The position numbers were made by a program, and so were the translations under genes. From contig JAQICB010000087.1 of assembly GCA_027858745.1 (NCBI GenBank), positions 1 through 36,456 on the forward strand: 36,456 nucleotides of DNA, given 5' to 3'. Below the pieces are notes generated by a model. That model ran no database searches and was not told the origin of the DNA. It saw nothing but the letters and a program-made list of their open reading frames with translations. This document shows, in pieces, positions 19,239 to 36,372 of the stretch. The first letter of the stretch is position 1. Each line of letters opens with the position of its first letter. Origin of the DNA: Bacteroidales bacterium (GTDB lineage: Bacteria > Bacteroidota > Bacteroidia > Bacteroidales > UBA1715).

Positions 19239-20285
19239 TTAGAATATATTTAAAATAGCATAGACACAATTTTTTGCTTCGTAATTTCGGTCAAACAACA
19301 GGGGATAATCTGTTCTTCCCTCAGTTGGGTGATTGTTCAGCCACGACTGACCGTCATGTACACCCCACACAGTAACTCTACTGATTTTGTTTCGATGTTT
19401 ATAAAACAATTGAAACAAACTTTTATATCGTTCAGAAAGTTTGTTTTCTATGTGTTCGGGTAATTCTTGTTCATATGGATTTTCGTCTCGGGGTAACACT
19501 GAAATGTCGAGTTCGGTTATCATAACATCAACTCCGGCATTGGTATAGGCAATAATGCTGGTTTCTATGTCTTCTAGACTCGGATGCTCAAGATTCCAAT
19601 GTCCTTGCATGCCAACCGCATCAATCCGTATGTTTTTGTTTTTTAAATTATGTATCATGTCGACTACCGCATTTCGTTTGCCTTCAAATGTCATATTATA
19701 ATCGTTATAATATAATTCGGCGGAGCTGTCAACTGAATGTGCTCGTGCAAAAGCTTCTTCGATAAATGCTTGACCCATGTATTTGTAAAACACGGTATCA
19801 CGAAACGAACCGTCATTGTGAAATGCTTCATTTACCACATCCCAACCATGAATAGTTCCTTTGTATCTGCCGGCAACCGAATCAATATGGGTATACATGA
19901 TATTTCGTAGCTCAGCACTATCGGTAATGGCATGAACCCATTCCGGTAATTGGCTGTGCCACAAAAGGGTGTGACCTATCACTTTCAGATTGTTTTCAAT
20001 GCCAAAATTTACAAAAGCATCTGCATCTGCAAAATCGAATACAGATTGTTGGGGTGATATATATTGCCATTTCATGGAATTTTCGGCAGTAATGCTGTTG
20101 AAATGTTTAAGTACAATATTCGTGGCATCTATTTCTTTAGATGTGTATTGTGCTTTGTTTACGGCAACGCCCATAATAAAGCTGTTTGCAAAAGCTGCTT
20201 TAAGTGTGTGTGGCTTAGCCGTCGGTTCTTCTTCTCTACAGGAGTAAACACACAAAAGGACACATATTATATAGAGATACTTCAT
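19239..20285 (-). CDS. GH10 endo-1,4-beta-xylanase lipoprotein, second copy
   Basis: A 348-residue lipoprotein (lipobox VYSC, Cys16) made of one GH10 barrel, which cuts internal beta-1,4-xylosidic bonds with retention. Landmarks: SITAENSMKW (65-73), GHTLLWHSQLPEW, the acid/base Glu153 in WDVVNEAF, NDYN near 194, GMQGHWNL and the nucleophile Glu258 in MITELDI. The late WGVHDGQSWLNNHP region completes the active site. There is no CBM module; the length equals the bare catalytic domain. It starts at the stop codon of the first GH10 copy, so the two are translationally coupled. Confidence 0.95.
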   Translation of the reverse strand: MKYLYIICVLLCVYSCREEEPTAKPHTLKAAFANSFIMGVAVNKAQYTSKEIDATNIVLKHFNSITAENSMKWQYISPQQSVFDFADADAFVNFGIENNLKVIGHTLLWHSQLPEWVHAITDSAELRNIMYTHIDSVAGRYKGTIHGWDVVNEAFHNDGSFRDTVFYKYMGQAFIEEAFARAHSVDSSAELYYNDYNMTFEGKRNAVVDMIHNLKNKNIRIDAVGMQGHWNLEHPSLEDIETSIIAYTNAGVDVMITELDISVLPRDENPYEQELPEHIENKLSERYKSLFQLFYKHRNKISRVTVWGVHDGQSWLNNHPTEGRTDYPLLFDRNYEAKNCVYAILNIF

Positions 20286-21403
20286 TATTCAGATTTTTCT
20301 TGAGAATATTTTTCTGCTGTTTTCATAATTAATTTGTATGCTCTTTTGGGTTTATAGTTGCGATTAAATACAAGCGGATAATTTGTGCGACCGCGAATAG
20401 GCCAGTTGTTCAGCCACGAATCTCCATCGTGTACGCCCCAAAAAGTAACTCGACTTATTTTATCGTGATGTTTTAAGAAAATATTGAAAATATCTTCGTA
20501 TCGTTTTGCTAAAAGTATATCAACCGAGTCGGGTAAAAAGTTGGGATACGGATTCATTTTTTCACTTTCTTCAAAATTTTGATTGACATCGGCACCTTCT
20601 AAATCCCATGGGTTTGGTAGCACGGTTATGTCTAATTCTGTAATCATTACTTTAATACCTAATTCAGAATATGCAATAATACTTTCTTCAATTGCTTCGA
20701 GACTTGGCCAGTTCAGATTCCAGTGTCCTTGCATACCTACACCGTCAATTTTAACGCCCTGAGCTTGTAATTCTTTTATTATACGAATTGCACCTTCTCG
20801 TTTAGGTGTATTCACCAAATTATAGTCATTATAATACAATTCGCAACTACTGTCAACTTCATGTGCATACTCAAATGCTTGTTTTATATAATCTGGTCCT
20901 ATAACTTTAAAAAAAAACGATTCTCTAAGTGTTCCATCCTCGTTAAGAGCTTCATTCACCACATCCCAGCCATCGATTTTTCCTTTGTATTCACCCATTA
21001 CGCGGTATATATGTTCTTTCATAACTGCATCTAAACGTGCAGAATCGGAAATTGCCTGAACCCATGGTGCTAACTGACTGTGCCATACTAATGTGTGACC
21101 CACAATAAACATGCTGTCTTGCTCACCCAATGCGACAAAATCATTGGCAAACGAAAAATTGTACCGGTTTTGTTCAGGATGTATTTGTTCCCACTTCATA
21201 ATGTTTTCGGGAGTAATGCTATTGAAATGTTTTTTTATCAGCAATCCGCCATCATAATCTCCACCCGATATGTGAGCATTATTTATTGCAACACCAATAT
21301 AAAAATACGGATTAAATGTTTCTTGTAAAGATTGCGATTGGTGTTGTGTTTTACAGGAAAAAAAACTAATTGCAGCTAATGTGATAATTATTGTTTTTCT
21401 CAT
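20285..21403 (-). CDS. GH10 endo-1,4-beta-xylanase lipoprotein, first copy
   Basis: A 372-residue lipoprotein (lipobox SFFSC, Cys17) with a GH10 barrel. Key positions are ITPENIMKWE (63-72), GHTLVWHSQLAPW, acid/base Glu151 in WDVVNEAL, GMQGHWNLNWPS and nucleophile Glu256 in MITELDITVLP. After the nucleophile strand it has about 20 extra residues (from NPWDLEGADVNQ) that are missing in the second copy. This loop borders the substrate cleft in GH10 enzymes, so the two may prefer different xylan decorations. It is the first gene of the minus-strand unit, facing the GH30 operon across about 200 nt. Confidence 0.95.
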   Translation of the reverse strand: MRKTIIITLAAISFFSCKTQHQSQSLQETFNPYFYIGVAINNAHISGGDYDGGLLIKKHFNSITPENIMKWEQIHPEQNRYNFSFANDFVALGEQDSMFIVGHTLVWHSQLAPWVQAISDSARLDAVMKEHIYRVMGEYKGKIDGWDVVNEALNEDGTLRESFFFKVIGPDYIKQAFEYAHEVDSSCELYYNDYNLVNTPKREGAIRIIKELQAQGVKIDGVGMQGHWNLNWPSLEAIEESIIAYSELGIKVMITELDITVLPNPWDLEGADVNQNFEESEKMNPYPNFLPDSVDILLAKRYEDIFNIFLKHHDKISRVTFWGVHDGDSWLNNWPIRGRTNYPLVFNRNYKPKRAYKLIMKTAEKYSQEKSE

Positions 21404-21611: not shown

Positions 21612-23378
21612 ATGAAAAAAAGCGCATTATTTGTTTGTTCATTATTTTACATATTTTATGGTTTTTCTCAAAATATGATAGATAATGGTAATTTTGAAAA
21701 TGATTATGAAAAATGGAATCGACTGACTGGCACTAACGGTGCCATGTCGTTTTATTCTTTAGATTTAGCTGTGGTATATGATGGTGCTCAGTCTATGCGT
21801 GTCTCTACAAAATCTGTGGGGGACAATCCCTGGGACAACCAGATGGTTCATGATGGGTTTTATCCAAAAAAAGATGAAGAATACAAATTACGTTTTTTTG
21901 CGTCAAGCAAAGAGGGAGAGGTTGATATAAAAGCGGTTATTCAGAATACGACATATAGTGAAAAAATATTTACCATTACTCCCGAATGGAAGGAATATGA
22001 GTGGACATTTACTGCTCAAGAGGACTATTTACAATTAAAATTTTTCTTTCACACCTTAGGTACGGTGTATCTCGACAATATTGCAATTATTGATAAAAAC
22101 TATAAACCGGTGCATGTTCTTTCAACTGACACTCTTATTGTTGATTATGCAGTACATCATCAAAAAATTGAGGGCTTTGGTGCTGCGTTGGCATTTTATG
22201 AAAATTGGATAACCGATCATCCTTCGAAGGAGGAAATGTATCGGTTAGCTTTTCAGGATTTGGGACTCGATTGGTTACGTATTCGAAATGATTATAAGTA
22301 TACAAATAATTATGCGGAATTTTCGAAAGAATTTGTTGATAAAGCAAAACAATGGCGCGGCGATTCCATTCGCATTCTTATGTGTGGCTGGTCGCCTCCG
22401 GCTGATTTGAAAAGTAATAATGATGTAAATAACGGAACCTTGAAAAAGGATGAAAATGGTTTTGTCTATCAACAATATGCGGACTATTGGAAAGAGGCTT
22501 TGTTGGCATATCAAGAAGCTGGCATTTATCCCGATTGGCTGAGTATTCAAAACGAACCCGATTGGTTAACTGATAAATGGGAAACCTGTAAATTTACTCC
22601 AACAGAAACTGAACAATACCCAGGATATGATAAAGCTTTTGCTGAAGTTATGAAAAAGTTTGCGGATATCGAACAAAAACCTTTAATGTTGGGCTCGGAA
22701 ATGTTGGGTATAGGTAATAATCAGTTTTATGCGTATAATTCTCCTCTCAAAGATAACCCTAATTTATTTGCCTATGCATACCATCTGTATAATGGTGGTG
22801 ATCCGGAAAAACCGGATAGTTATAATGCTGCTTTGCAAAATATTAAAAAGGATTTTTCGAACAAACCAAATGTGATGACCGAGTTCGAACATCGCAAGGG
22901 AAAATGGTATAAAACATCGTGGTTGATGAATAATTTGCTTACAGAAGCAAACTTGACTGCTTATTTTTATTGGGATTTGATATGGCCGAATGCAGGCTTG
23001 ATAGATATTGATAATCCATATGATAAAGGTGGCTGGCGAAACGTAAAGGGCTTTCAAAAAACAGAGCATTATTATGCGTTTAAGCATTTTAGTAAATTTT
23101 TGGATGCGGGAGATGTTCGTGTTGAACATCAAAATTCTAATAATTTTTTACGAAGTTCGGCATATATGTCTGCCGACAGTACACTTACCATTGTTATTAT
23201 TAATCCTACAGAAACAGAAATCACAAGTACTCTACAAATACCACATTTTGCGAGAAAATCATCTGAAATTATTCAATCGGTTTCGGATAATTTTTTTGCA
23301 TTACTCGGGAAGATTCCGGCTGACAATCGGCTTGTTCTTCCTCCGGAATCTGTAACAACAATTGTGATGAAAAAATAA
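21612..23378 (+). CDS. GH30 glucuronoxylanase-like enzyme with N-terminal CBM-like domain
   Basis: The 588-residue protein has a signal peptide (cleaved near GFSQ, residue 20) and a CBM4_9-like jelly roll (about 21-160, NGNFENDYEKW to VYLDNIAI). A GH30 barrel with its beta side-domain follows (about 172-588). GH30 marks are QKIEGFGAALAF (184-195), CGWSPPADLKSN (258-269), acid/base Glu315 in SIQNEPDW, YHLYNGG, and nucleophile Glu424 in VMTEFEH. WSPPA with QNEP suggests the xylanase subfamilies, which cut xylan next to glucuronosyl branches; this specificity is inference. No lipobox or T9SS tail is visible, so it is probably periplasmic or released. First gene of the plus-strand operon. Confidence 0.9.
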   Translation: MKKSALFVCSLFYIFYGFSQNMIDNGNFENDYEKWNRLTGTNGAMSFYSLDLAVVYDGAQSMRVSTKSVGDNPWDNQMVHDGFYPKKDEEYKLRFFASSKEGEVDIKAVIQNTTYSEKIFTITPEWKEYEWTFTAQEDYLQLKFFFHTLGTVYLDNIAIIDKNYKPVHVLSTDTLIVDYAVHHQKIEGFGAALAFYENWITDHPSKEEMYRLAFQDLGLDWLRIRNDYKYTNNYAEFSKEFVDKAKQWRGDSIRILMCGWSPPADLKSNNDVNNGTLKKDENGFVYQQYADYWKEALLAYQEAGIYPDWLSIQNEPDWLTDKWETCKFTPTETEQYPGYDKAFAEVMKKFADIEQKPLMLGSEMLGIGNNQFYAYNSPLKDNPNLFAYAYHLYNGGDPEKPDSYNAALQNIKKDFSNKPNVMTEFEHRKGKWYKTSWLMNNLLTEANLTAYFYWDLIWPNAGLIDIDNPYDKGGWRNVKGFQKTEHYYAFKHFSKFLDAGDVRVEHQNSNNFLRSSAYMSADSTLTIVIINPTETEITSTLQIPHFARKSSEIIQSVSDNFFALLGKIPADNRLVLPPESVTTIVMKK

Positions 23379-23427
23379 ATAATACTATGGTAAATAATTT
23401 GTGGCATACACTTAAAGCCATTTTTTT

Positions 23428-25509
23428 ATGAAAAAAAGATATATTGTATTACTGTGTTTATGTGGAAGTCTTTTCTTCGCTAGTGCTCAAAAAATTAGCA
23501 ATTTCTCGAACTCTTTTGAGGATTCTACTCAGCAGATAGAAAAGCGGAAATATGACGGAATTCGGTTTTCGGGATATGTTCGTTCTGTATTCTTTTATCG
23601 CGATGTTGATGTATATGAATTGGGCGATCAAGGGAGATTGACCTTGCCCAAAAATATTTCTCTTGGCGATGCCTACGATGAGCCGATTATTCATTTAGAA
23701 ATGAATGCCAGCCCATTTCCGGCTACAAATATCGCAACTGAATTAGCTTTTGATAATCGCTTATTGCGTGGCGGTTCGTTTAATGAAACAGTTGATGAAA
23801 ACGGTCGTATGGGAAGTGCATGGCATATGTTTAATTTTAAGGCTGAAACCTTTACCAGTTTCGGTTCTTTTAAATTAACTGCCGGTGGCGGTGTAAATTG
23901 GTTTCGCATGACTCCGCTTATTATGTGGTCGGCAAATGATTTCAACAGTCGCATTGAATTATTCGATCGTATGCCGTGGGAATATCAGTCTAATGATTTT
24001 GAACGCTATTCTGCATACTACAATCAGGGCGATATTCCTCGTGAAGATAAGGTGGGGAATAGTTCAACACAAGGAGTTATTTTGGAAGGATTTGATTTGC
24101 CCGGACAAGGTAACGCTGCATTGGTTGTTGGTAAGGCTTCGGGAAGTGCCGGTTTTCAAAGTTGGGAAGATAAACGTCCCCAAAATTTAATGGCACTTCG
24201 ATTGAATCGGGCTTTTGGAAAACATTCCTTTGGAGTGAATTATATCAACCAATTTGGTCATGTTGAAAATGAGATAAGCTACACGAAAATTACCAAAGAT
24301 TCTGAAATATATTATATTGACGCAACCAAAATAAGTCAGTTGGCAACAACTGTTGACGGTCTTCTGCAGCTGAATAATAATATACGTCTCAATTTCGAAA
24401 TTGGTGCGGGTTCGTATTTAAGTCAATTGTATAATGACGGACTCAAGGAGAATATTGAACCCGGTGTTGAAAACGTTAGTACGTACAAGCGGAATTGGGA
24501 TGAGTTGCTGATGGCGGAGGTTACATTTGCTAATTTGCCAATTCGTGTGCAAGGATATCGAATTGGTGAGCAGTTTGTGAATTTTGCCTCTTCGGTCCAA
24601 AATACTTCAATCGAAAAAACGGGTTCAGCCGCTGAACAAACAATGTCGAACACTTCATGTTATCCCGGGTTAATTCCGCAAATTGGTCAAACGACTAATA
24701 ACAGACAGGGAATTAATGCTTTTTTTAATAAATCTTTTGGTGATTTTAAAACGCATGCCGGATATGGTATTTCGCAAGAATTAACCAATTTTGCCGGAGA
24801 TGTTCGCAATGGTGCGCGGGTTTCAGAATTTGCGTCTGACCCCGACAGTGCGACAATTGCTTCGTATACAAATAGTATCACGTTTCAGCATTCATTAAAT
24901 AAACTGGCACGTTCCCGTTTCGGCTTTTGGGAAACAAATACCGGTCCGTATTCGCGTATTCATAATAAATATCGTCAATCATACGAAAATATCGTAATTA
25001 CCGATACTGTTGTTGATTATAAAAAGTCTTATGCAAGTATCGAGTTGGAGTTGAAGTATAAAACAATTTTGTTTAATCGTCCGGTGATCTTTACGAATTA
25101 TATTCAGTATAATTCTGTACAAGAAAACCTGTCTCTTATTCCAAAATTCAACGACGAGGCATTTGTCCGCTTGTTATATAACGAATTTACTATGTTTTAT
25201 AATATTCAACATAATATTACTTTGGTGGGATTGCTTGGGTACGAAACCGTACAAGGAAATAATCGCACTGAATTGGCGAACGAAAATGGGGATTTAATTC
25301 TTGATGAAAATGGTGCTATTGTGTTTGATGAAAACGGAAATCCGATTAATCAAATTGATTATGGCTATGGGTTTGGAATTGATTACACATTTGCAAGTCG
25401 TGCCAGTCTGCACTACCGTCATCGCTGGTATTCTCACGAAGATACACATTTTATATTGGATACATTTAAAGGTAATGAAGCAACAATTGAACTTAAAATA
25501 TTTTTTTAA
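23428..25509 (+). CDS. Outer-membrane beta-barrel protein in xylan operon, unknown family
   Basis: A 693-residue protein with a signal peptide (cleaved after ASAQ, residue 21). It then shows alternating aromatic/polar strands throughout (RFSGYVRSVFFYRD, SFGVNYINQFGHVENEISY, ASLHYRHRWYSHE) and ends ATIELKIFF, with the C-terminal aromatic that marks outer-membrane barrels for the BAM machine. It has no CarboxypepD_reg or plug domain and no TonB box, so it is not SusC. Near the end lies a short Asp/Asn-rich repeat (NENGDLILDENGAIVFDENG), perhaps a Ca-binding turn. I do not recognise a named family. Position right after the GH30 gene suggests a xylooligosaccharide channel or surface scaffold. Confidence 0.75.
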   Translation: MKKRYIVLLCLCGSLFFASAQKISNFSNSFEDSTQQIEKRKYDGIRFSGYVRSVFFYRDVDVYELGDQGRLTLPKNISLGDAYDEPIIHLEMNASPFPATNIATELAFDNRLLRGGSFNETVDENGRMGSAWHMFNFKAETFTSFGSFKLTAGGGVNWFRMTPLIMWSANDFNSRIELFDRMPWEYQSNDFERYSAYYNQGDIPREDKVGNSSTQGVILEGFDLPGQGNAALVVGKASGSAGFQSWEDKRPQNLMALRLNRAFGKHSFGVNYINQFGHVENEISYTKITKDSEIYYIDATKISQLATTVDGLLQLNNNIRLNFEIGAGSYLSQLYNDGLKENIEPGVENVSTYKRNWDELLMAEVTFANLPIRVQGYRIGEQFVNFASSVQNTSIEKTGSAAEQTMSNTSCYPGLIPQIGQTTNNRQGINAFFNKSFGDFKTHAGYGISQELTNFAGDVRNGARVSEFASDPDSATIASYTNSITFQHSLNKLARSRFGFWETNTGPYSRIHNKYRQSYENIVITDTVVDYKKSYASIELELKYKTILFNRPVIFTNYIQYNSVQENLSLIPKFNDEAFVRLLYNEFTMFYNIQHNITLVGLLGYETVQGNNRTELANENGDLILDENGAIVFDENGNPINQIDYGYGFGIDYTFASRASLHYRHRWYSHEDTHFILDTFKGNEATIELKIFF

Positions 25510-25512
25510 ATC

Positions 25513-27246
25513 ATGATGAAAAAGGTTTTTATTTTAGCGGTTATTGTGGGGTTAGCATATTATACCCACGCTCAAAATACGTATTTTACCGGTATGGGTA
25601 GAGCATTGTTTTCTATCGATGAAATGACCGATGAGGTGCAACCCGAGGGACAGCAAAATGCATCATCCGGATATACTGTATTTGATTTGGGCATTAATGT
25701 CGAAAACGAAGGTCTTATGCGTGCCGGTGCAATTATTCGGGCTCGTAATGAGTTTGGTGGTTTTTATGCCGACGGGAGTTCGACTCTCGCAATCCGTCAA
25801 ATGCAGATTGAAGGTATTATCGGAAATCGAGTAAAGTTTGGTATTGGTGATATTTATTTGCATCAAACACCATATACTATCTGGAATTTTAATGAAAGCT
25901 TTATCGATTATGAAGCTGATATTTTTAGCATGAGACGAAATGTGGTAAATTATGAAAATTATTTTATTGACAATAATTGGCGAGTACAAGGTGTCAATAC
26001 AGAAACAACTTTGCATTTTATGCAGGGTATTAAAACGCTCGGTCTTCAGGCATATGGAGCTCGATTGTTGGAATCTGACCTGTTAACTATTCCCGATAGA
26101 TTAATGTATGGCGGTCGGGTGTTTATCGTGCAAAGTGATTTGCTTAAGTTGGGTGGAAATGTAGTCAGTATCAGTGATATTTTGGGTACAGTAGATTCTT
26201 CTGAGGTTGATTATGATAATACGGTTGTTACCGGAGATATGATTTTCCAATTATTGAAAAAAGATGCTATTACAATTAATCTTATTGGAGAAGGAGGTAT
26301 TTCTTCAACTGCTTTGCGTGAAGATGTATCGAGTGTCGATAAAGATAAAGATGATTTTTTTTATGAATTTGGTGTAAAAATGCAGTATGCTCCAAAAAGT
26401 AAAATCGGACTACAAATAAATTACCGCGATGTTGGTCCCGATTTTAACAGTCCGACAGCACAAACGAGACGAATTATTGAAAATCCTCAAGACTATTCTT
26501 TGGAGTCATTTCCTCACTTTAATGATGCTTCGACTCTTCGTTCCATGACAATGCTCGATAGAGTTTCGCAAGAATATGGATTGTATAATGGCAGTATTTC
26601 GACGGGTTTAATGGATTATTTACCTCAATATAATAATATAGAACCATACGGACAGGCTACGCCAAACAGACGAGGACCTTCTGCTATTCTTTCATACAGC
26701 GATTCTTTGGAAGTGGTAAGCTTTACCATGAAAGCTGATATGCTTTCCGAAATTTATTCGGCCGGAGATACGGCAACGCGAGCTCACAGAAAGTTTATCG
26801 GACTAAAAGGTGGTGTTGAGTATAATGCTCACAAAACGTTTGATTGGGAAAAAGAGGTGATTCTTACTCTTGGCGGAAAATATGAATCGACTACTCGTGA
26901 CGGAGATGTACCGATTGATTTGCAAACTGTGTCGCTCGACTGTGGGCTAAATGTGGAAACTATTGAAAATTTACATGTTTTGCTCGGGGCAAAAGTATTA
27001 CAATCGCAAGGGAATGAGGCTTTGCCCGTAATGAACAGACTGAATGAGGTAACTACCGGAACAACTCCTGTTACGCTCGATTTAACAGAAACCTTATTTG
27101 GTTTCGGATTGCAATACACGTTCTCGAACACAGCTTATTTTTCAACGCAATATATTTTAAATGATTATGAAAATCTTGTTCCCGGGCAGGAAAAATATAC
27201 ATTTTCAACAAATCAATGGTTCTTTACATTCAATATTAGTTTTTAA
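25513..27246 (+). CDS. Second outer-membrane beta-barrel protein in xylan operon, unknown family
   Basis: A 577-residue protein with a signal peptide (cleaved near YTHAQ, residue 21), a beta-rich body and a C-terminus NQWFFTFNISF ending in Phe, as in outer-membrane barrels. The first part (FTGMGRALFSIDEMTDEV, then GAIIRARNEFGGFYADGSST) looks like porin strands, and later strands such as KSKIGLQINYRDVGPDF are regular. There is no plug or TonB box. It starts 3 nt after the previous barrel gene. The two do not look like simple duplicates, but they share an overall plan, so they may form a pair. It could be an oligosaccharide porin. Confidence 0.75.
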   Translation: MMKKVFILAVIVGLAYYTHAQNTYFTGMGRALFSIDEMTDEVQPEGQQNASSGYTVFDLGINVENEGLMRAGAIIRARNEFGGFYADGSSTLAIRQMQIEGIIGNRVKFGIGDIYLHQTPYTIWNFNESFIDYEADIFSMRRNVVNYENYFIDNNWRVQGVNTETTLHFMQGIKTLGLQAYGARLLESDLLTIPDRLMYGGRVFIVQSDLLKLGGNVVSISDILGTVDSSEVDYDNTVVTGDMIFQLLKKDAITINLIGEGGISSTALREDVSSVDKDKDDFFYEFGVKMQYAPKSKIGLQINYRDVGPDFNSPTAQTRRIIENPQDYSLESFPHFNDASTLRSMTMLDRVSQEYGLYNGSISTGLMDYLPQYNNIEPYGQATPNRRGPSAILSYSDSLEVVSFTMKADMLSEIYSAGDTATRAHRKFIGLKGGVEYNAHKTFDWEKEVILTLGGKYESTTRDGDVPIDLQTVSLDCGLNVETIENLHVLLGAKVLQSQGNEALPVMNRLNEVTTGTTPVTLDLTETLFGFGLQYTFSNTAYFSTQYILNDYENLVPGQEKYTFSTNQWFFTFNISF

Positions 27247-27249
27247 GGT

Positions 27250-28428
27250 ATGGAAAAACGAATCGTATATATATTATTTTTATTATTGAGCACTGCCGGA
27301 TGTAAAGTTACTTTTGAAACTATTTCGCTCGATCAGAATTATATGAAAAGTCTTCATTCCGGTGAAAAAATAACATCAGAACAAATTGTGATTTCCGGAA
27401 AACCGGTTTTGTCTTACAATAATGGTGATTTGCTTTCAAACCGAAACTGGTGGAGTCTAAAGGGAATAAACGTACACAAAGAGGATGAGATTGTGGTTGT
27501 TGATTTCAATAATATTGGACCAACATATACGCCGTTTGGTGCGGATTTACCCTTACTGGATTTTGCTAAAGAGGATGTGGTTATTAAAATTACCGCCCGT
27601 GCTGAAGGGGTCAATGGCGATGTGCCATTGTTGAGTATGCAATTTGATGATTCCGAAGGTTTGCAGGCAAATGCAAAACGTCCCGAAGCTCGTATTGGAA
27701 ATACTGAGGAATTCCACGATTATTATTTCGATTGTAGTGATATGTGGCTACAAATGTATCCCGATAAAAAGGAGGTAAATGCTCACATTATTAATAAAGT
27801 TTTATTCTTCGTAAACCCTGGAAATACCGGTTTTACCGGGAAAATTTTTATTAAAGAATTTCAGGCATTACCTATAGATTCTCTCAAAGAAAATCCTGAA
27901 TTTAAAGTTCCGGTCGGGAAAGAAGGTGGTGTTGTTTCGCATTTTGACTCGAAAGATATTTCAGATTGGTGGACTGCCGGAAGCTATTCTTTATCGTGGT
28001 CACCCGATAGTTCTCTAAAAGTAAATTGTTCTCAAGTTGGTCCCGAATATGGTTCTTTTGGTGTAAAATTGCCCGAAACAATGAATATGAAAATGGCATA
28101 TAAAATTACGCTGAAGGCTCGTTACGAAGGCGAGAGCTATCCGGAATTACGTATCGATGTCAAAGATTACAGTGGGTATATTTCGAATGGAAGTCCGGCA
28201 ACAAATTGGCTTGAACCAACCGAAAATAAAGAGTTCGTGACGTATGTTTATATTTATAAAAAAAATATATTTCAAGCATATCCTGTTCGTCGCGAATTGG
28301 ATAAGGAACGCATAACAGAGTTGTTGTTTTTCGTAAACCCAGGTAAGGAGGCATGGTCCGGTACAATTTATATTGATGATATAGAGGTTGTATATACCGG
28401 TTTGGGTGGTAGAAATTCTGAAAGATAG
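27250..28428 (+). CDS. Lipoprotein with two tandem beta-sandwich repeats, putative xylan binding
   Basis: The 392-residue product is a lipoprotein (LSTAGC, Cys18). Its body is two copies of one domain of about 160 residues (about 48-215 and 228-385). Matching points are NIGPTYTPFGADLP against QVGPEYGSFGVKLP, VIKITARAEG against KITLKARYEG, MQMYPDKKEVN against FQAYPVRRELD, and VLFFVNPGNTGFTGKIFI against LLFFVNPGKEAWSGTIYI. The fold resembles CBM-type jelly rolls; no catalytic residues can be named. A surface glycan-binding role, like that of SusE/SusF, is inferred from anchor, repeats and position 3 nt after the barrel gene. Confidence 0.75.
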   Translation: MEKRIVYILFLLLSTAGCKVTFETISLDQNYMKSLHSGEKITSEQIVISGKPVLSYNNGDLLSNRNWWSLKGINVHKEDEIVVVDFNNIGPTYTPFGADLPLLDFAKEDVVIKITARAEGVNGDVPLLSMQFDDSEGLQANAKRPEARIGNTEEFHDYYFDCSDMWLQMYPDKKEVNAHIINKVLFFVNPGNTGFTGKIFIKEFQALPIDSLKENPEFKVPVGKEGGVVSHFDSKDISDWWTAGSYSLSWSPDSSLKVNCSQVGPEYGSFGVKLPETMNMKMAYKITLKARYEGESYPELRIDVKDYSGYISNGSPATNWLEPTENKEFVTYVYIYKKNIFQAYPVRRELDKERITELLFFVNPGKEAWSGTIYIDDIEVVYTGLGGRNSER

Positions 28429-28437
28429 ATTTGTAAT

Positions 28438-29979
28438 ATGGTAAATTTGGCACATATGATACATATTAATAATAGCTGGTTTTTTCTTTTTGTTCTTGTA
28501 TTGTTTGCGAGTTCTTGCAATCATAAATATGATGATACGCAGTTCCCGGAACCGGATCCGACAGAGAGTAGAATTGAGATATTAATTTCTGATTTTGACG
28601 GGAATGGTTTATTTCCGGATTTGTGGAACAGTACCAACGACGGCTCAGAAATGACGGATTATGATTTGTTACCAAATCCGGATTCTGAACAATCGGATAC
28701 GTCTTTATATATGGCAGGAACAGATAAAAATAATAACTGGTGGGTCGGTACTGCTTTGGGTGGCGACAATATGGGTGACCCATTCGGATTGCCTGCTGAT
28801 GCTTCGAAAATAACGATTCAATTTGATTTGTATGCGGTGAATGAATATGCTAATATTGAAATACAATTGCAAGAGGCTGATGGTGATGTGTTTTCATGGA
28901 ACCTCGGTGGCGATGGTGGTCTGTCTCCTTCGGTTGGCAGTTGGAAAACATTTCAAACAGTACCGCTCAGTGAATTTAATTTGGCTGATTTTAATAATGG
29001 TGAAAATGGGGATAAGCAGTTAGCTCCCGATTTGTTGGCAAATATTAGTCTTGCTCTTATTTCGGGTAATTCTACCGGAAATTATACGGCATTGTATCTT
29101 GATAATGTAAAGTTTGTGGTGCTTGAAACAAGTTATGTTGCAACACCCACAAATTTATGTGCAGAGGCTGTTTCTCAATCGCAAATTGATTTGTCATGGG
29201 CAGATAATTCTGATAATGAAACAATGTTTGTTATTGAACGTGCTGTTGCCGATAGTGAATTTCAAACGCTTGTTACACTTGATGCTAATGCGTCAACATA
29301 TTCTGATATGGGCTTGCAATCGTCTACCTCATATGTATATAGAGTACAGGCATTGTATTATCAAAAACAATCGAATTATTCGAATGTTGTTACGAAAAAA
29401 ACACTGCAGGGACAAGTAGTAACTATGCTGCTTTCTACTTTCGATAATGATGAGCAGGGCAAACTGCCGGGAAAATGGGAGCAAACAAGTGATGTTGCAG
29501 AATTGGCTGAATATGGTTTTGTTGTAAATCCTCTCGCTCTGGAAAGTACCGATACTGTATTGTTTATGCAGGGAACTGATTCTGATTCTGATTGGTGGAT
29601 TGGTACCGCTATTGGTGGAAATCGAAGTGCCGGAGAGGTCTTTGATTTGCCTGCTGATGCAAATAAGATTTCTATTCGGTTTGATTTGTATGCCGGAAAT
29701 GCAACCACCAATTTGGATTTGCAATTGCAAGAAGCTGATGGAGATACCTTTGTGTGGAATTTTGGTGGTGATGGCGGTTATCAGGCTTCCGAGGAGGAAT
29801 GGGTAACGTATACCGTGCCTTTATCTGATTTTTATTTGTCCGGGTTTGAAACAAGTGGCGATAATGTATTGGCTCCCGAATTATTATCGAATGTAAGTAT
29901 TGCACTCATTTCTGGTAATGTTCAAGGAAATGAGGCTATTGCATATATAAATAATGTAAAATTTATTATCTCGGACTAA
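28438..29979 (+). CDS. Lipoprotein with CBM-like / FN3 / CBM-like domains
   Basis: A 513-residue lipoprotein (lipobox FASSC, Cys27; an ATG at 28456 would give a shorter signal). Two homologous beta-sandwich domains (about 45-230 and 327-513) flank a fibronectin type III domain (about 235-322: PTNLCAEAVSQSQIDLSWAD to SYVYRVQALYY). The repeats align closely, for example WWVGTALGGDNMGDPFGLP with WWIGTAIGGNRSAGEVFDLP, and LQEADGDVFSWNLGGDGG with LQEADGDTFVWNFGGDGG. FN3 here would be a spacer. It is likely a surface xylan-binding protein in the same complex as the preceding lipoprotein and barrels. No enzyme domain is present. Confidence 0.78.
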   Translation: MVNLAHMIHINNSWFFLFVLVLFASSCNHKYDDTQFPEPDPTESRIEILISDFDGNGLFPDLWNSTNDGSEMTDYDLLPNPDSEQSDTSLYMAGTDKNNNWWVGTALGGDNMGDPFGLPADASKITIQFDLYAVNEYANIEIQLQEADGDVFSWNLGGDGGLSPSVGSWKTFQTVPLSEFNLADFNNGENGDKQLAPDLLANISLALISGNSTGNYTALYLDNVKFVVLETSYVATPTNLCAEAVSQSQIDLSWADNSDNETMFVIERAVADSEFQTLVTLDANASTYSDMGLQSSTSYVYRVQALYYQKQSNYSNVVTKKTLQGQVVTMLLSTFDNDEQGKLPGKWEQTSDVAELAEYGFVVNPLALESTDTVLFMQGTDSDSDWWIGTAIGGNRSAGEVFDLPADANKISIRFDLYAGNATTNLDLQLQEADGDTFVWNFGGDGGYQASEEEWVTYTVPLSDFYLSGFETSGDNVLAPELLSNVSIALISGNVQGNEAIAYINNVKFIISD

Positions 29980-29984
29980 ATGAT

Positions 29985-31601
29985 ATGTTCTTAAACAATG
30001 TGAAAATAGCTGTATTTTTCTTTGTTCTTGTGTTTTTCTTTTCGTGTGCCAATCAAAAATCGCAACATGAAAAGGATGAACAGGGAACAATGTATATAAA
30101 TCCTGTACTTCCGGGTTTTTATCCCGACCCAAGTATTTGTAAAGCTGAGGGCTATTTTTATATGACTCACAGTACATTTCAGTTTTTTCCGGGCTGTCCT
30201 CTTTTCCGTAGTGCCGATTTAATTCATTGGGAACAAATTGGTAATATTTTAGACAGAAAATCGCAACTTGCTATTGATAGTGTTTTTTCTTCGGGAGGTG
30301 TTTTTGCCCCGACACTTCGTTATCATAATGGTACGTTTTATCTTATTACCACGCTTATTGGAACACCCAATGGCGGTAATTTTTTTGTAACTGCTCAAAA
30401 CCCGGCTGAGCCATGGTCTGAACCAGTAAATATTGATATGCCGGGCTACGACCCCGATTTGTTTTTTGATGAATCGGGACGGGTATATGTGACGGTAAGT
30501 AATGGTGAAGCGATTGTCCAGTCTGAAATAGAAATTGAAACAGGAAAATTACTTTCGGACCCAAGGGTTATTTGGGAAGGAACCGGTGGACGTTTTCCGG
30601 AAGGGCCTCATCTGTATAAAAAAGATGAGTATTATTATTTGCTTATTTCCGAGGGCGGAACAGAATATGGTCATTATGTTGTTATTGCTCGTAGTAAATC
30701 GGTTGATGGTCCTTTTGAATCAGCTCCGAATAATCCCATATTAACACATCGCGATAGAGGTAATCATACCCTACAAGCGACTGGACATGCCGATTTTGTG
30801 CGAGCCGATGATGGCTCATGGTGGGTTGTTTTTCTCGGTTTTCGAAAAGCGGGGTGGTCATATCATCATTTGGGAAGAGAGACTTTTTTGGCTCCGGTAA
30901 ATTGGAAAAAAAATTTATGGCCGGTTATATATAACAATGGGGAGGTTGAATACGAAATGTATGCTGATCTTTTGGAACAGGTGCCAATAAGACAATCATA
31001 TGCAGAGACCGATTTTTCGGATACTCTCGGGCATGAATGGTTGTATCTGAGAAATCCTGATATATCAAATTTTTGTGTGCGTAATAATGAACTTCAAATT
31101 GATGGAAACAGGTACACTTTAGATGATGTACAATCACCTTCGTTTGTCGGAGTACGGCAACGTCAGTTTGATGTTGTGCTAGAAACAAAAGTACGTCTTA
31201 CCGGTAAAGAAGCCGGACTTTCGGTATTTATGGACGAAGATCATCATTATGAACTTGGAATAAAAAAGAATAATGAGGGATATACGGTATTTTCTCGTGC
31301 AACAATCGGCTCATTATCAAATGAATTGAAATCAATTTCAATCTCGGATAATAGGGTGACTATGTATATTTATTCAGATAAAGAATATTATTATTTTAAT
31401 ACGATAATTCAGAACGACACCATATCTCTCGGGAAAATGGAATGTCGTTACCTCTCTTCAGAAGTTGCGAGTGGATTTACCGGCGTAATTCTGGGTATGT
31501 ATGTGTATGGAAATAGGTCGCGAGCTATTTTCGATTATTTCCATTATATGGAACGTAATGTGATTACGCCTTCTGTATCAAAATTTGAGTCAGATGAATA
31601 A
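29985..31601 (+). CDS. GH43 lipoprotein, beta-xylosidase / arabinofuranosidase type
   Basis: A 538-residue lipoprotein (FFFSC, Cys21) with a five-bladed GH43 propeller (about 35-330) and a C-terminal beta-sandwich (about 345-525) of the kind found in GH43 xylosidases (GH43_C2-like). Catalytic positions: base Asp48 in YPDPSIC, pKa modulator Asp156 in GYDPDLFFD and acid Glu206 in RFPEGPHLY. It acts by inversion, freeing xylose or arabinose from chain ends or branches. The anchor keeps it at the outer membrane or in the periplasm. The 5-nt gap before it and 8-nt overlap with GH67 after it show coupling. Exact substrate cannot be read from motifs. Confidence 0.9.
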   Translation: MFLNNVKIAVFFFVLVFFFSCANQKSQHEKDEQGTMYINPVLPGFYPDPSICKAEGYFYMTHSTFQFFPGCPLFRSADLIHWEQIGNILDRKSQLAIDSVFSSGGVFAPTLRYHNGTFYLITTLIGTPNGGNFFVTAQNPAEPWSEPVNIDMPGYDPDLFFDESGRVYVTVSNGEAIVQSEIEIETGKLLSDPRVIWEGTGGRFPEGPHLYKKDEYYYLLISEGGTEYGHYVVIARSKSVDGPFESAPNNPILTHRDRGNHTLQATGHADFVRADDGSWWVVFLGFRKAGWSYHHLGRETFLAPVNWKKNLWPVIYNNGEVEYEMYADLLEQVPIRQSYAETDFSDTLGHEWLYLRNPDISNFCVRNNELQIDGNRYTLDDVQSPSFVGVRQRQFDVVLETKVRLTGKEAGLSVFMDEDHHYELGIKKNNEGYTVFSRATIGSLSNELKSISISDNRVTMYIYSDKEYYYFNTIIQNDTISLGKMECRYLSSEVASGFTGVILGMYVYGNRSRAIFDYFHYMERNVITPSVSKFESDE

Positions 31602-33735
31602 AATGGCATTAAGCATATTACTGTGTGTTGTCGCACTATTTGTTCATGCGGAAGACGGGTATGATGCATGGCTCCGGTATCAACCAATTGCAGATGAACA
31701 GCTACGAACAGAATATGCTCAGTATATACAATCTATTGTGGTTTTTCAGGAGCATCCAACACTTGATGCTGCGTCTGCTGAATTGCAGGATGCATTGAAT
31801 GAAATGCTGCAGACAGAAATTCTAATATATAATGACGTACAAAAACCTTCGGTAATACTTGCAACAGTTGATAAAGTGCCATTTACATATAGTGAGTCAA
31901 CTGAACATCTCGGTGATGAGGGCTTTCATATTTTCGAAAAAAAGTATAATTCACATTCGTGTATTGTTGTAACAGGAAATACGGAAATAGCTGTTTTGTA
32001 CGGCTCATTTCATTTATTGCGACTCATTCAAACGCAACAAAGTATTACCAAATTAGCAATTACCGAAGTGCCCACAATTGATGTGCGTGTGTTAAATCAT
32101 TGGGATAATCTTGATGGGAGTGTTGAACGAGGTTATGCGGGGCAATCAATATGGCGATGGTTCGAATTGCCCCAAGTGGTTTCTCCGCGTTATCGTGACT
32201 ATGCCCGCTACAATTCATCTGTTGGTATAAATGGTACAGTACTGACTAATGTAAATGCGAATGCAGATGTGTTAACGACGGAATATTTAGATAAAGTTCG
32301 GGTAATTGCCGATGAACTTCGTCCTTACGGTATTAAGGTGTATTTAACGGCTCGATTCAATGCACCTATAGAAATTGGCGGATTAGGAACAGCCGACCCT
32401 CTTGATGCAAGTGTACAAGAATGGTGGAATAAAAAAGTAGCTGAAATCTATACTAATATTCCTGATTTTGGTGGATTTTTGGTTAAAGCTAATTCTGAGG
32501 GACAACCCGGTCCGAATGACTATGGTCGTAGTCATGCTGAAGGTGCAAATATGCTCGCCCGTGCTTTGCAAATATATAATGGTATTGTTATGTGGCGGGC
32601 GTTTGTGTATAGTAATAAAGAGCCAGAAGACCGGGCAAAACAAGCATATAATGAATTTAAACCGCTTGATGGCGAATTTGAAAAAAATGTACTGATTCAG
32701 ACTAAAAACGGTCCGATAGATTTTCAACCCCGAGAACCGTTTCATCCGCTTTTTGGAGCAATGGAGCATACCCCACTTATGATGGAGTTTCAGATTACTC
32801 AGGAATATCTGGGGCAAGGATTTCATGTGTGTTATCTGGCACCGCTCTACAAAGAGTGTTTGTCTGCCGATACCTATGCACGTGGCGAAGGTTCTACCCT
32901 TGCAGAGGTAATTGATGGTTCGCTTTATGATACTCAATTAACCGGAATAGCAGGGGTTTCAAATGTCGGAAACGACCGCAATTGGACGCGTCATCCTTTA
33001 GCACAGGCAAATTGGTATGCCTTTGGCAGATTGGCGTGGAATCATGAATTAACTTCAAAACAAATTGCGGAGGAGTGGATTTGCATGACTTTTTCGCATA
33101 ATAAAAAAGTGGTAAATACAATGTTGGATATTATGTTGCAATCGCGGGAAACGGAGGTCATGTACACGTCGCCTTTGGGATTGCACCATCAAATGGCATG
33201 GCACCACCATTATGGTCCGGGTCCGTGGGTAGACAATAAACCGCGAGCAGACTGGACTTCGATATATTATCATAATGCAGATTCTACAGGCATTGGGTTT
33301 GACCGCACAAAAACAGGAAGTAATGCTGTCGCTCAGTATTATCCGGAAGTACAAGAACGGTTTGCTTCATTGGAAAACTGTCCGGAAGACTATTTGCTTT
33401 GGTTTCATCATGTGCCGTGGGAGTATACAATGAATTCGGGCAGAACAGTCTGGAATGAGCTCTGCTACATGTACCATACCGGTGTGCAGCGTGTAGAGCA
33501 GATGCAGACACAATGGGATTCTCTCGAAGGATATATTGATGAACAGCGCTTTAGTCACGTGCAGTCATTATTAAAGATTCAACACAATACAGCATGTTTA
33601 TGGCGAGATGCAAGCGTTTTGTATTTTCAAACATTTTCGCATAAACCATTGCCGAAGTGGTTTCCTAATCCCACACAAACGCTGAAAGAATACAAACAGA
33701 TAGAATATAAATATTTACCCGGAAGTCAGTTTTAA
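31594..33735 (+). CDS. GH67 alpha-glucuronidase
   Basis: The enzyme removes (4-O-methyl-)glucuronic acid from the non-reducing-end xylose of xylooligosaccharides, acting after GH10/GH30 cleavage. From the ATG at 31585 the product has 716 residues; I prefer MNKMALS (31594), which gives a clean signal peptide ending LFVHAED. An N-terminal beta domain (to about 160) is followed by the barrel. GH67 residues, numbered from 31585, are Glu305 in KANSEGQPGP, Asp379 in GPIDFQPREP and Glu407 in FQITQEYLGQG. RVLNHWDNLDGSVERGYAG and WTRHPLAQANWYAFGRLAW also match the family. Length is normal. A periplasmic location is likely. Confidence 0.95.
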   Translation: MNKMALSILLCVVALFVHAEDGYDAWLRYQPIADEQLRTEYAQYIQSIVVFQEHPTLDAASAELQDALNEMLQTEILIYNDVQKPSVILATVDKVPFTYSESTEHLGDEGFHIFEKKYNSHSCIVVTGNTEIAVLYGSFHLLRLIQTQQSITKLAITEVPTIDVRVLNHWDNLDGSVERGYAGQSIWRWFELPQVVSPRYRDYARYNSSVGINGTVLTNVNANADVLTTEYLDKVRVIADELRPYGIKVYLTARFNAPIEIGGLGTADPLDASVQEWWNKKVAEIYTNIPDFGGFLVKANSEGQPGPNDYGRSHAEGANMLARALQIYNGIVMWRAFVYSNKEPEDRAKQAYNEFKPLDGEFEKNVLIQTKNGPIDFQPREPFHPLFGAMEHTPLMMEFQITQEYLGQGFHVCYLAPLYKECLSADTYARGEGSTLAEVIDGSLYDTQLTGIAGVSNVGNDRNWTRHPLAQANWYAFGRLAWNHELTSKQIAEEWICMTFSHNKKVVNTMLDIMLQSRETEVMYTSPLGLHHQMAWHHHYGPGPWVDNKPRADWTSIYYHNADSTGIGFDRTKTGSNAVAQYYPEVQERFASLENCPEDYLLWFHHVPWEYTMNSGRTVWNELCYMYHTGVQRVEQMQTQWDSLEGYIDEQRFSHVQSLLKIQHNTACLWRDASVLYFQTFSHKPLPKWFPNPTQTLKEYKQIEYKYLPGSQF

Positions 33736-33768
33736 TGAGTACATTTAATTACTAAAAAAATAACTACG

Positions 33769-35193
33769 ATGAACCGTCTAGAAAAAATTTCATTAGGAGA
33801 AAAAATCGGATACAGCTTGGGAGACTTAGCTGCAAACTTGGTTTTTCAGACATTAATTACGTATCTCGCCTATTTTTATACCGATGTGTACGGCTTAGAA
33901 CCGAAAGTTGCAACGCTTATTATTTTTACGGTCGGCATTGTTGCTGCGTTTTTGTTTAACCCCATTATGGGAGCTGTAGCTGATCGCACCAAAACCCGCT
34001 GGGGAAAGTTTCGCCCTTGGATTTTGTGGACTACTGTGCCACTTGCTATTACTGCAATTTTGGCATTTAGCACGCCGGATTTTTCAACTCACGGAAAAAC
34101 CGTATATGCAGCAGTAACCTATTCTCTTTTGCTTTTACTGTATGCTGCCAACAACCTTCCTTATGCGGCTTTGAGTGGCGTTATTACCGGAAATATGTCG
34201 GAGCGAAATAGTATTTCTTCGTACCGATTTGTCGCCGTCATGCTTGCTCAGTTTTTTGTGCAAGTGTTTATGTACGATATTGTGCTGAAAGTAGGAGGGG
34301 GAGACAAGGCTCTTGGTTTCGAAAAAGTAGTTACATTTCTTGCTATTTTAGGGTCGGTGTTGCTACTTATTACATTTTTTACGACTAAAGAACGAATTGT
34401 GCCCAAACCCGAACAAAATTCTTCGCTCAAACAAGATGTACGCGATTTGTTTTCGAACAAACCATGGATAATCATGTTGTTGGTAACCATTAGTGTGTTT
34501 ATGACATTATCCTTAAAAGGAGGTTCGTATTTATATTATTTTGAAAATTATTTGAACAAACAAGCCTTAGCAGAATTTTTATTGCCGCTCAAAGGTGTAT
34601 TAGATTCGATAGGGTTAAGTTATGAATCTGTTCCTTCAATGGGATTTAGTGTGTTTAATGCCGGTGGTATTTTATGTATGATTATCGGGATTGCATTCTC
34701 GCGAAAACTTGCCGACACATACGGAAAACGTGATGTGTTCCGTTCTGCTTTGTTTTTGTCAATGCTTTTTTTAGTGGTGTTTTATTTTTATTCTCCCTAT
34801 GCAATCCTGCTCGTGTATATCTCGCAAATTTTACATGGTTTTTTCTATGGGTTAACCATTCCACTGTTGTGGGCAATGATTGCCGATGTTGCCGATTTTT
34901 CTGAATGGAAACATAATCGCCGTGCAACAGGTATTATTTTTTCTGCAATGATGGTCGGACTTAAAGCGGGAATGAGTCTCGGACAAGGTCTTATTACGTG
35001 GATTTTGGATATTTTTGGCTATGTGCCAAAATCTCCTGAACAAACGGAAACAGCAATTTACGGAATTAAATTATTAATAAGTGTGTTTTCTGCTCTTCCA
35101 TTTCTTGTAGCAGTTGTGTTATTGTTATTTTATGAAATAGATAAAAAAATGGAAACACAATTAGAAACAGATTTACTTGAAAGTCGAAAATAA
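33769..35193 (+). CDS. GPH-family sugar:cation symporter
   Basis: A 474-residue inner-membrane protein with about 12 helices, of the glycoside-pentoside-hexuronide:cation symporter (MelB/XylP/XynB-like) family in the MFS superfamily. It starts with KISLGEKIGYSLGDLAANL and has FNPIMGAVADRTKTRWGKFRPW in the loop between helices 2 and 3, the GPH version of the MFS loop. NLPYAALSGVITGNMSERNS is the family's helix 4-5 region, and IADVADFSEWKHNRRATGI comes late. It most likely takes up xylooligosaccharides or aldouronic products with Na or H. It sits between the periplasmic GH67 and the cytosolic GH43, as in classical xylan operons. Confidence 0.92.
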   Translation: MNRLEKISLGEKIGYSLGDLAANLVFQTLITYLAYFYTDVYGLEPKVATLIIFTVGIVAAFLFNPIMGAVADRTKTRWGKFRPWILWTTVPLAITAILAFSTPDFSTHGKTVYAAVTYSLLLLLYAANNLPYAALSGVITGNMSERNSISSYRFVAVMLAQFFVQVFMYDIVLKVGGGDKALGFEKVVTFLAILGSVLLLITFFTTKERIVPKPEQNSSLKQDVRDLFSNKPWIIMLLVTISVFMTLSLKGGSYLYYFENYLNKQALAEFLLPLKGVLDSIGLSYESVPSMGFSVFNAGGILCMIIGIAFSRKLADTYGKRDVFRSALFLSMLFLVVFYFYSPYAILLVYISQILHGFFYGLTIPLLWAMIADVADFSEWKHNRRATGIIFSAMMVGLKAGMSLGQGLITWILDIFGYVPKSPEQTETAIYGIKLLISVFSALPFLVAVVLLLFYEIDKKMETQLETDLLESRK

Positions 35194-35217
35194 TATTCAT
35201 TAAAACATATTTGTCTT

Positions 35218-36246
35218 ATGCCTGAAGATAGTATTGAACACATAGATTTTCACCGATTAAACAAACATGCAATTTCACAAGCATTGGTAACACACATGTA
35301 CACAGCCGACCCTTCGGTACACGTGTTTAATGGGAAAATATACATATATCCTTCGCACGATTTCGATGCCGGTATTCCATTTAATGATAATGGCGATCAT
35401 TTTGGTATGGAAGATTATCATGTGTTGTCAATGGATGCAATAGATAGCAAACCTGAAGATCATGGTGTTGTTTTGCATGTGAAAGATGTACCTTGGGCAG
35501 AACGACAAATGTGGGATTGTGATTGTGCACACAAAAATGGAAAATACTATTTGTATTTTCCCGCTAAACGAGCCGATGGTATATTTCAAATAGGTGTGGC
35601 TGTGAGCGACAGTCCTACCGGACCATTTGAGCCACAGCCCAAACCAATGAAAGGCAGTTATTCCATAGATCCTGCCGTGTTTCAAGACACAGACGGAAGT
35701 TATTATATGTACTTCGGGGGAATTTGGGGCGGACAGTTGCAAAAATACCGCGATAATAAATATGGCGAAATGTATGATGTTCCTCCGGAAAATGAATCCG
35801 CACTTGCGCCGCGTGTGGCAAAACTTTCAGATGATATGCTCGAATGTGCCGAATCGCCAAAAGCTGTTTCTATAGTAGATGAAAACGGCATACCACTTCT
35901 TGCAGGCGACAATGACCGTCGTTTTTTCGAAGCATCATGGGTGCATAGATATAAAGGGAAATATTACTTTTCCTATTCCACCGGAGATACTCATTTTATA
36001 AATTATGCAATAGGAGACAATCCCTACGGTCCGTTTATCTTTGCAGGTATAATTTTGAAACCCGTAGTTGGCTGGACAACCCACCATGCTATATGCGAAA
36101 TACAGGGAAAATGGTATTTGTTTTACCACGACGCCAGCCTCTCAAAAGGTATTACCCACCTTCGGTCTCTGAAAGTTACCGAATTGAAATATGACGAAAA
36201 TGGTGCAATTCAAACAATAGATCCGTATCCGGGATTGGAGCGGTAG
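35218..36246 (+). CDS. Cytoplasmic GH43 beta-xylosidase / arabinofuranosidase
   Basis: A 342-residue single-domain GH43 enzyme with no signal peptide, so cytosolic. Catalytic positions: base Asp31 in YTADPSVHV, pKa modulator Asp151 in SYSIDPAVFQD and acid Glu238 in RRFFEASWVHRY. The MEDYHVLSMD and DCDCAHKNGKYYLYFPAKR blades and WTTHHAICEIQGKWYLFYHD match the GH43_1-type xylosidases that often sit next to a GPH symporter in Bacteroidota. It would split imported xylooligosaccharides into xylose. It is quite different from the lipoprotein GH43 at 29985 and lacks a C-terminal sandwich. Last gene of the operon; no clear terminator follows. Confidence 0.92.
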   Translation: MPEDSIEHIDFHRLNKHAISQALVTHMYTADPSVHVFNGKIYIYPSHDFDAGIPFNDNGDHFGMEDYHVLSMDAIDSKPEDHGVVLHVKDVPWAERQMWDCDCAHKNGKYYLYFPAKRADGIFQIGVAVSDSPTGPFEPQPKPMKGSYSIDPAVFQDTDGSYYMYFGGIWGGQLQKYRDNKYGEMYDVPPENESALAPRVAKLSDDMLECAESPKAVSIVDENGIPLLAGDNDRRFFEASWVHRYKGKYYFSYSTGDTHFINYAIGDNPYGPFIFAGIILKPVVGWTTHHAICEIQGKWYLFYHDASLSKGITHLRSLKVTELKYDENGAIQTIDPYPGLER

Positions 36247-36261
36247 TAACTTGATTTTAAA

Positions 36262-36372
36262 CCGGAGTTCGACGTAATTTTTACTGTTCAGATCCTTGTT
36301 TGTATTATTGTGTGCTTTAATACTTGGCTGAATTTGTAACCTGAGTTCGACGTAATTTTTCGAGTTCAGATT
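36262..36372. repeat. Two direct repeats of about 33 nt in the 3' non-coding tail
   Basis: CCGGAGTTCGACGTAATTTT (36262-36281) and CCTGAGTTCGACGTAATTTT (36340-36359) differ at one base. Both are followed by a second match (GTTCAGAT) ending at 36293 and 36371. The 45-nt spacer is unrelated. Downstream there is a small hairpin, AGCTC-CGCT-GAGCT, and a palindrome near the window end (ATAGCGAGCTAT). The structure resembles a dispersed intergenic repeat or mobile-element end. A minus-strand frame through it repeats LNSKNYVELR and is an artefact of the repeat. Confidence 0.7.

Follow-up and report, generated by a model that had tools for sequence, protein, structure and literature searches.

In the Bacteroidota, SusCD is commonly treated as synonymous with glycan uptake, and surveys of genomes detect PULs through SusC/SusD pairs. 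A different arrangement, the cluster chu_1276–chu_1280 of Cytophaga hutchinsonii, was named an atypical PUL by Zhang et al. in 2025 (PMC12016534). The cluster was reported in only two more cellulolytic species (PMC12016534) and is known from C. hutchinsonii, C. aurantiaca and Sporocytophaga myxococcoides. SusC and SusD are dispensable for cellulose use by C. hutchinsonii (PMC12016534). CHU_1276 and CHU_1277 are outer-membrane proteins required for cellulose use (PMC12016534), and deletion of chu_1279 or disruption of chu_1276 or chu_1277 stops growth on this substrate (PMC12016534, PMC5553014). CHU_1277 was described as a porin that takes part in the assimilation of cello-oligosaccharides (PMC5553014), and CHU_1278 is predicted to be a two-domain beta-sandwich protein (PMC12016534). 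CHU_1279, which is SGBP-B-like, is located in the outer membrane and binds cellulose, and cells that lack it do not grow on cellulose (PMC12016534). Since growth is still restored by variants of CHU_1279 with poor cellulose binding (PMC12016534), binding is not the sole task of this protein.

The DNA analysed here (the window, 36,456 nucleotides) is the entire contig C119 of a host genome of 2.9 Mb, which is 98% complete in 169 contigs. Nine consecutive plus-strand genes at 21612-36246 encode GH30, two barrels (A and B), two lipoproteins (LP1 and LP2), GH43, GH67, a GPH symporter and a second GH43, while two GH10 genes (19239-21403) are divergent from this run. We conclude that the locus is a variant, linked to xylan, of the atypical PUL known from Cytophaga. 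Every open reading frame of the preliminary description was found at its coordinates (Table 1). The tight packing of barrels and lipoproteins that it reported, 3-9 nt apart, was seen again, with gaps of 3 nt (A-B), 3 nt (B-LP1) and 9 nt (LP1-LP2), followed by 5 nt between LP2 and GH43; GH30 and A are separated by 49 nt. The true start of GH67 is probably an ATG a few codons inside the open reading frame. The GH43 that lacks a signal peptide is probably cytoplasmic, and the protein with the CBM6/35-like stretch is probably exposed on the surface.

Table 1. Genes of the xylan-linked locus, with positions in the window and the evidence for each assignment.
Feature	Position	Strand	Evidence
Protein with CBM6/35-like stretch, weak T9SS sorting tail	18008..19198	-	Pfam, all slightly below cut-off; weak relative (24%) in the same place in genome G004
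GH10 xylanase, second copy	19239..20285	-	Pfam E 7e-101
GH10 xylanase, lipoprotein signal	20285..21403	-	Pfam E 3e-99; 68% to the same-place gene in G004
GH30 + CBM4_9, glucuronoxylanase-like, signal peptide	21612..23378	+	Pfam; 68% to the same-place gene in G004
Barrel A, outer-membrane beta-barrel, CHU_1276 homologue, 693 aa	23428..25509	+	blastp, AlphaFold
Barrel B, outer-membrane beta-barrel, CHU_1277 homologue, 577 aa	25513..27246	+	blastp, AlphaFold, profile homology to A
LP1, surface lipoprotein, two CBM-like domains, homologue of cellulose-binding SGBP-B-like CHU_1279	27250..28428	+	blastp, aromatics
LP2, surface lipoprotein, SGBP_B_XBD - fn3 - SGBP_B_XBD, in the place of CHU_1278	28438..29979	+	Pfam, hhalign
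GH43 + GH43_C2, beta-xylosidase/arabinofuranosidase-like, lipoprotein signal	29985..31601	+	Pfam E 1e-80
GH67 alpha-glucuronidase (N/M/C domains), signal peptide	31585..33735	+	Pfam E 5e-153
GPH-family sugar:cation symporter, inner membrane	33769..35193	+	TIGR00792 above cut-off; PF13347 (MFS_2)
GH43 without signal peptide	35218..36246	+	Pfam E 1e-23

The enzyme set matches the breakdown of glucuronoarabinoxylan, which the enzymes suggest as the substrate. Pfam recognised the GH30, both GH43, the GH67 and the two divergent GH10 proteins, in agreement with the nearly complete set described before, and the GPH importer of the operon was likewise borne out by TIGR00792 and PF13347. These two GH10 genes are the only ones in the host genome.

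The occurrence of Sporocytophaga among the matches to barrel B led to C. hutchinsonii. The antigen peptide KDINQMDANADSPK of CHU_1279 (375 aa) and ten published residues of this protein (Q48, W89, F92, F180, E204, E212, Y253, F256, F343 and Q375; positions from PMC12016534) all fall in one open reading frame, which shows that the genome examined is that of C. hutchinsonii and that the three preceding open reading frames are CHU_1276, CHU_1277 and CHU_1278. In blastp comparisons, A matched CHU_1276 with 32% identity over 727 columns (E 2e-112) and B matched CHU_1277 with 39% over 613 columns (E 2e-130). The barrels had been called orphan; this did not hold, as both have many homologues. The profiles of A and B are also homologous to each other (hhalign 98.8%, E 5e-17, 507 columns), and by this sequence criterion the two proteins are distant paralogues.

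AlphaFold models of the single barrels were built from 71-row alignments. The model of B (pLDDT 92.1, pTM 0.87) has 22 long strands, and that of A (pLDDT 83.9, pTM 0.85) has about the same number. The strands start at residue 45 in A and at residue 22 in B, and both models open straight into the barrel with no plug before it. Pfam contained no plug family matching A, B or 70 relatives of each, and the models align to TBDT chains only past the plug. The absence of a plug, noticed previously from the letters of the DNA, is therefore upheld by both approaches. The best structural matches were generic, namely pilus ushers, OprD-type porins, AlgE, chitoporin and TBDT barrels with 7-15% identity. 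Foldseek TM values against solved structures did not exceed ~0.5, Z reached 16, and the Foldseek/VIA matches singled out no one porin family for A or B.

Searches of Pfam, NCBIfam, PHROGs and PDB sequences assigned no family to either barrel. B gave only a partial match to the generic Pfam barrel model OMP_b-brl, and the match of A to CNDH2_C (E 8e-4, below the cut-off) was taken as chance. Two further candidates were rejected: a phage-related origin, for which generic barrel matches alone were obtained, and a degenerate SusC, since the hhalign probability against the SusC proteins of the host genome was just 1-3%. Sugar porins such as chitoporin, maltoporin and ScrY, like the OprD-type channels, are barrels of 16-18 strands that are not known to have lipoprotein partners. 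The barrels of the window share their lack of a plug, and such proteins are among the best structural matches; unlike them, B is modelled with 22 strands, and no sequence relation was seen.

Both lipoproteins consist of duplicated CBM-like domains, as had been proposed. LP1 carries two CBM4_9-like repeats behind a STAGC lipobox and aligns with CHU_1279 over the full length (33% over 380 columns, E 1e-53, blastp). The aromatic residues Y253, F256 and F343 of the C-terminal domain, through which CHU_1279 binds cellulose, correspond to Y267, F270 and F361 in LP1, and the N-terminal domain of LP1 has an aromatic set of its own (Y93, F96, F187). LP2, with an ASSC lipobox, contains two SGBP_B_XBD domains and an fn3 domain between them; PF18329 matched two stretches above the cut-off (E 5e-16), and PF00041 was matched as well. 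LP2 thereby has the SGBP-B layout, that is, a lipoprotein with tandem beta-sandwich, putatively glycan-binding domains (PF18329). No clear blastp match was obtained between LP2 and CHU_1278 (E 0.008 over 41 aa), and only the C-terminal domain of LP2 is remotely like the CHU_1278-type family, here termed LP3 (hhalign 92%, E 5.5e-7).

The window and the chu_1276–chu_1280 cluster thus share homologous A, B and LP1/CHU_1279, a second lipoprotein, a glycosidase, the placement of all of these on one strand and the absence of SusC and SusD. They differ in their enzymes, GH10, GH30, GH43 and GH67 in the window in place of the GH9 found next in C. hutchinsonii, and in the second lipoprotein, which is SGBP_B_XBD-fn3-SGBP_B_XBD instead of the CHU_1278 type, the two lipoproteins standing in reversed order. 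Moreover, the host of the window belongs to a different order from C. hutchinsonii and has a GPH importer within the operon. The locus is like SusCD PULs, for example the xylan PULs of Bacteroides, in combining surface enzymes, binding lipoproteins, barrels, periplasmic and cytoplasmic enzymes and an importer, to which a sibling locus (ADurb.Bin217) adds a hybrid two-component regulator. Unlike them, it has neither a TonB-dependent SusC nor a SusD, and its barrels are plug-less and show no profile similarity to SusC.

We consider it likely that the locus encodes a SusC/SusD-free outer-membrane complex for the capture and uptake of glucuronoarabinoxylan, homologous to the CHU_1276–CHU_1279 set. 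Xylan would be cut at the surface by the GH10, GH30 and GH43 enzymes, and the chain would be held at the cell surface by LP1 and LP2. The oligosaccharides may then cross the outer membrane via A and B by a non-TonB route, perhaps through a heteromer of the barrels with the lipoproteins. In the periplasm, GH67 would remove glucuronic acid, the GPH symporter would import the product, and the cytoplasmic GH43 would finish its degradation. Uptake may be diffusive, which would be consistent with the missing plug. The preliminary description had suggested a different kind of glycan capture and uptake complex. A complex that is not of the SusCD type remains the best-supported reading, with which the mutants of the C. 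hutchinsonii homologues agree (PMC12016534), but the arrangement has a precedent in the Cytophaga atypical PUL.

The main rival explanation is that A and B form a scaffold or assembly platform for presenting or exporting lipoproteins and enzymes of the surface, while the oligosaccharides enter via general porins. The best structural matches include, apart from porins and TBDT barrels, the pilus ushers FimD and PapC (Z ~14-16, 337-370 residues, rmsd 4-5), which would suit such a role; the barrel models, however, are without the extra domains of an usher. That CHU_1279 is physically present counts for more than its binding (PMC12016534), and the cell-surface beta-glucosidase activity is altered in CHU_1276 and CHU_1277 mutants (PMC5553014), both of which would fit a scaffold. 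Meanwhile, the poor growth of chu_1276 and chu_1279 mutants on 0.1% glucose (PMC12016534) points to uptake, and the barrel pair also travels with quite different enzymes of the starch and beta-glucan type. We regard the scaffold as unlikely.

A true SusC/SusD pair might instead serve xylan from beyond the contig end or from elsewhere in the genome, leaving A and B as accessories. Neither SusD (PF07980) nor SusC (TIGR04056) gave a match on the contig, in line with the lack of both noted before. It should be noted, however, that the contig stops 210 bases past the last GH43, leaving the right-hand limit of the locus out of view, and that the host genome contains three SusD and three full SusC elsewhere. 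A SusCD system elsewhere, which would have spoken against the first description, was looked for among these genes. One SusC/SusD pair lies beside an alpha-amylase and GH130 (C140), another has no adjoining glycosidase (C164), one SusC without SusD (C66:12524-15475) is found beside an esterase with a T9SS tail, and one SusD stands alone (C101). The neighbours of all of them were inspected, and none is located at a contig end beside xylan genes. An adjoining SusCD on another contig was rejected on these grounds, and the search of the SusC/SusD neighbours and of GH10 turned up no SusCD locus for xylan anywhere else in the host genome. Among 14 genomes of the host family, there are only 0-3 SusD per genome, and barrel A is present in 7 of the 14. 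Such SusD numbers are very low for Bacteroidota. A role for SusCD in xylan uptake by this host is accordingly improbable. Two SusD of the host family, of the C164 and C101 types, seem to be conserved orthologues unlinked to glycosidases.

For the survey of relatives, aligned barrel B was compared with genome contigs, and the best 80 of 194 relatives were taken; barrel A as a single query found no relative there. The loci sample was drawn by similarity to the B of the window and hence leans to near relatives, and four of the 88 loci are second copies of a contig already counted. A lies directly upstream of B on the same strand in 85 of these 88 loci, with a median gap of 6 nt. Downstream follow either LP3 (CHU_1278 type) and LP1 (CHU_1279 type), or LP3 and LP4 (CBM30). 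Of 79 loci, 60 had one or more of the listed glycosidases and none had a true SusC or SusD, the one match in L027 covering an N-terminal domain of 63-78 aa only. In control stretches of ~90 kb of the host genome away from the unit, the only such enzyme was a GH31 in C108, ~12 kb from the second copy of the unit. The gene-neighbourhood survey suggested earlier has thus shown both the adjacency of the barrels and their association with glycosidases. That A and B are housekeeping porins standing beside xylan genes by chance is already disfavoured and very improbable, because, for all their generic porin-like folds, their order is conserved in three xylan loci and in the 85 of 88, they have lipoprotein partners and glycosidase neighbours, and their homologues have a published essential role.

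The A-B unit was found in 50 of the 395 genomes sampled from the class and in 6 of 395 genomes drawn from the phylum, and barrel A in 17 of 19 genomes of the Sporocytophaga/C. hutchinsonii family. A protein search showed that the host genome carries a second A-B pair (C108:28.5-32.1 kb) and that other genomes have such pairs as well. Separate trees of A and B contain an identical 22-member clade (SH-aLRT 100) with C. hutchinsonii and three xylan loci, and the C108 copy sits in the other clade of both trees. LP1 is restricted to the first clade (17 of 22 members) and LP4 to the second (40 of 50). These results indicate that the A-B pair is an old, co-inherited unit.

The neighbouring enzymes vary and are of the cellulose, beta-glucan, starch, xyloglucan or xylan type. 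GH9 accompanies the unit in C. hutchinsonii and its kin, GH3 is found in 29 loci, GH16 in 13, a GH2/GH5-like TIM barrel in 36, and a pectate-lyase-like protein in L063. The order GH10/GH30-A-B-LP1-LP2 is kept in ADurb.Bin217 (L029/L030) and bin9 (L041). In the former, the locus continues directly with the hybrid two-component regulator of the PUL kind and with GH10-CBM6 and GH43-CBM6 proteins.

On balance, we lean towards the view that A and B with two lipoproteins represent a second, general system by which Bacteroidota acquire glycans at the outer membrane, one that depends on neither SusCD nor a TonB plug. This system would have substrate-specific versions for cellulose, xylan, starch, beta-glucan and xyloglucan, would be based on a duplicated plug-less barrel family outside Pfam, and may be the main route in certain families that have hardly any SusCD. 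When the literature was searched for PULs independent of SusC, the Cytophaga work alone was obtained, and in the literature covered the spread of the unit over Bacteroidota, with links to several glycans, appears not to have been described. The unit is invisible to surveys based on SusC/SusD, although it is present in ~1/8 of the sampled genomes of the class. It connects cellulose uptake by Cytophaga, a puzzle of long standing, with loci for xylan, starch and beta-glucan in other lineages, and soluble substrates such as xylo-oligosaccharides and malto-oligosaccharides make the mechanism easier to test than crystalline cellulose does.

Several related loci deserve separate mention. Sister to the xylan barrels is a group (L042, L043, L044) located beside T9SS alpha-amylases (GH13) and GH97, a probable starch version of the unit. 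In the second host locus (L027, C108:20000-36200), the barrel pair is followed by LP3, a CBM30 repeat lipoprotein and GH5, with divergent GH2, GH31 and a sugar kinase; this copy looks like a xyloglucan version. Ten barrel A matches were found in one Cytophagaceae MAG (G1018, L063), where the unit may have expanded to serve several substrates. In 19 loci of Flavobacteriales/Crocinitomicaceae (e.g., L090, L099, L103), the array A-B-LP3-LP4-GH3 is recurrent, and near it are an unnamed protein of 280 aa, a GH2/GH5-like TIM-barrel protein and a NUDIX/NrtR-type regulator. The CHU_1279-type lipoprotein is represented by two open reading frames with further repeats in L048:12896-14819 (Sporocytophaga) and L047:8352-10300; the proteins may be longer tandem versions, or the assemblies may contain frame breaks.

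To the right of the last GH43, the window contains two copies (36260-36370) of a motif close or identical to GAGTTCGACGTAATTTTT. This dispersed intergenic repeat was seen only in the host genome, where it recurs on several contigs (also in L006, L009, L028, L037 and L039).
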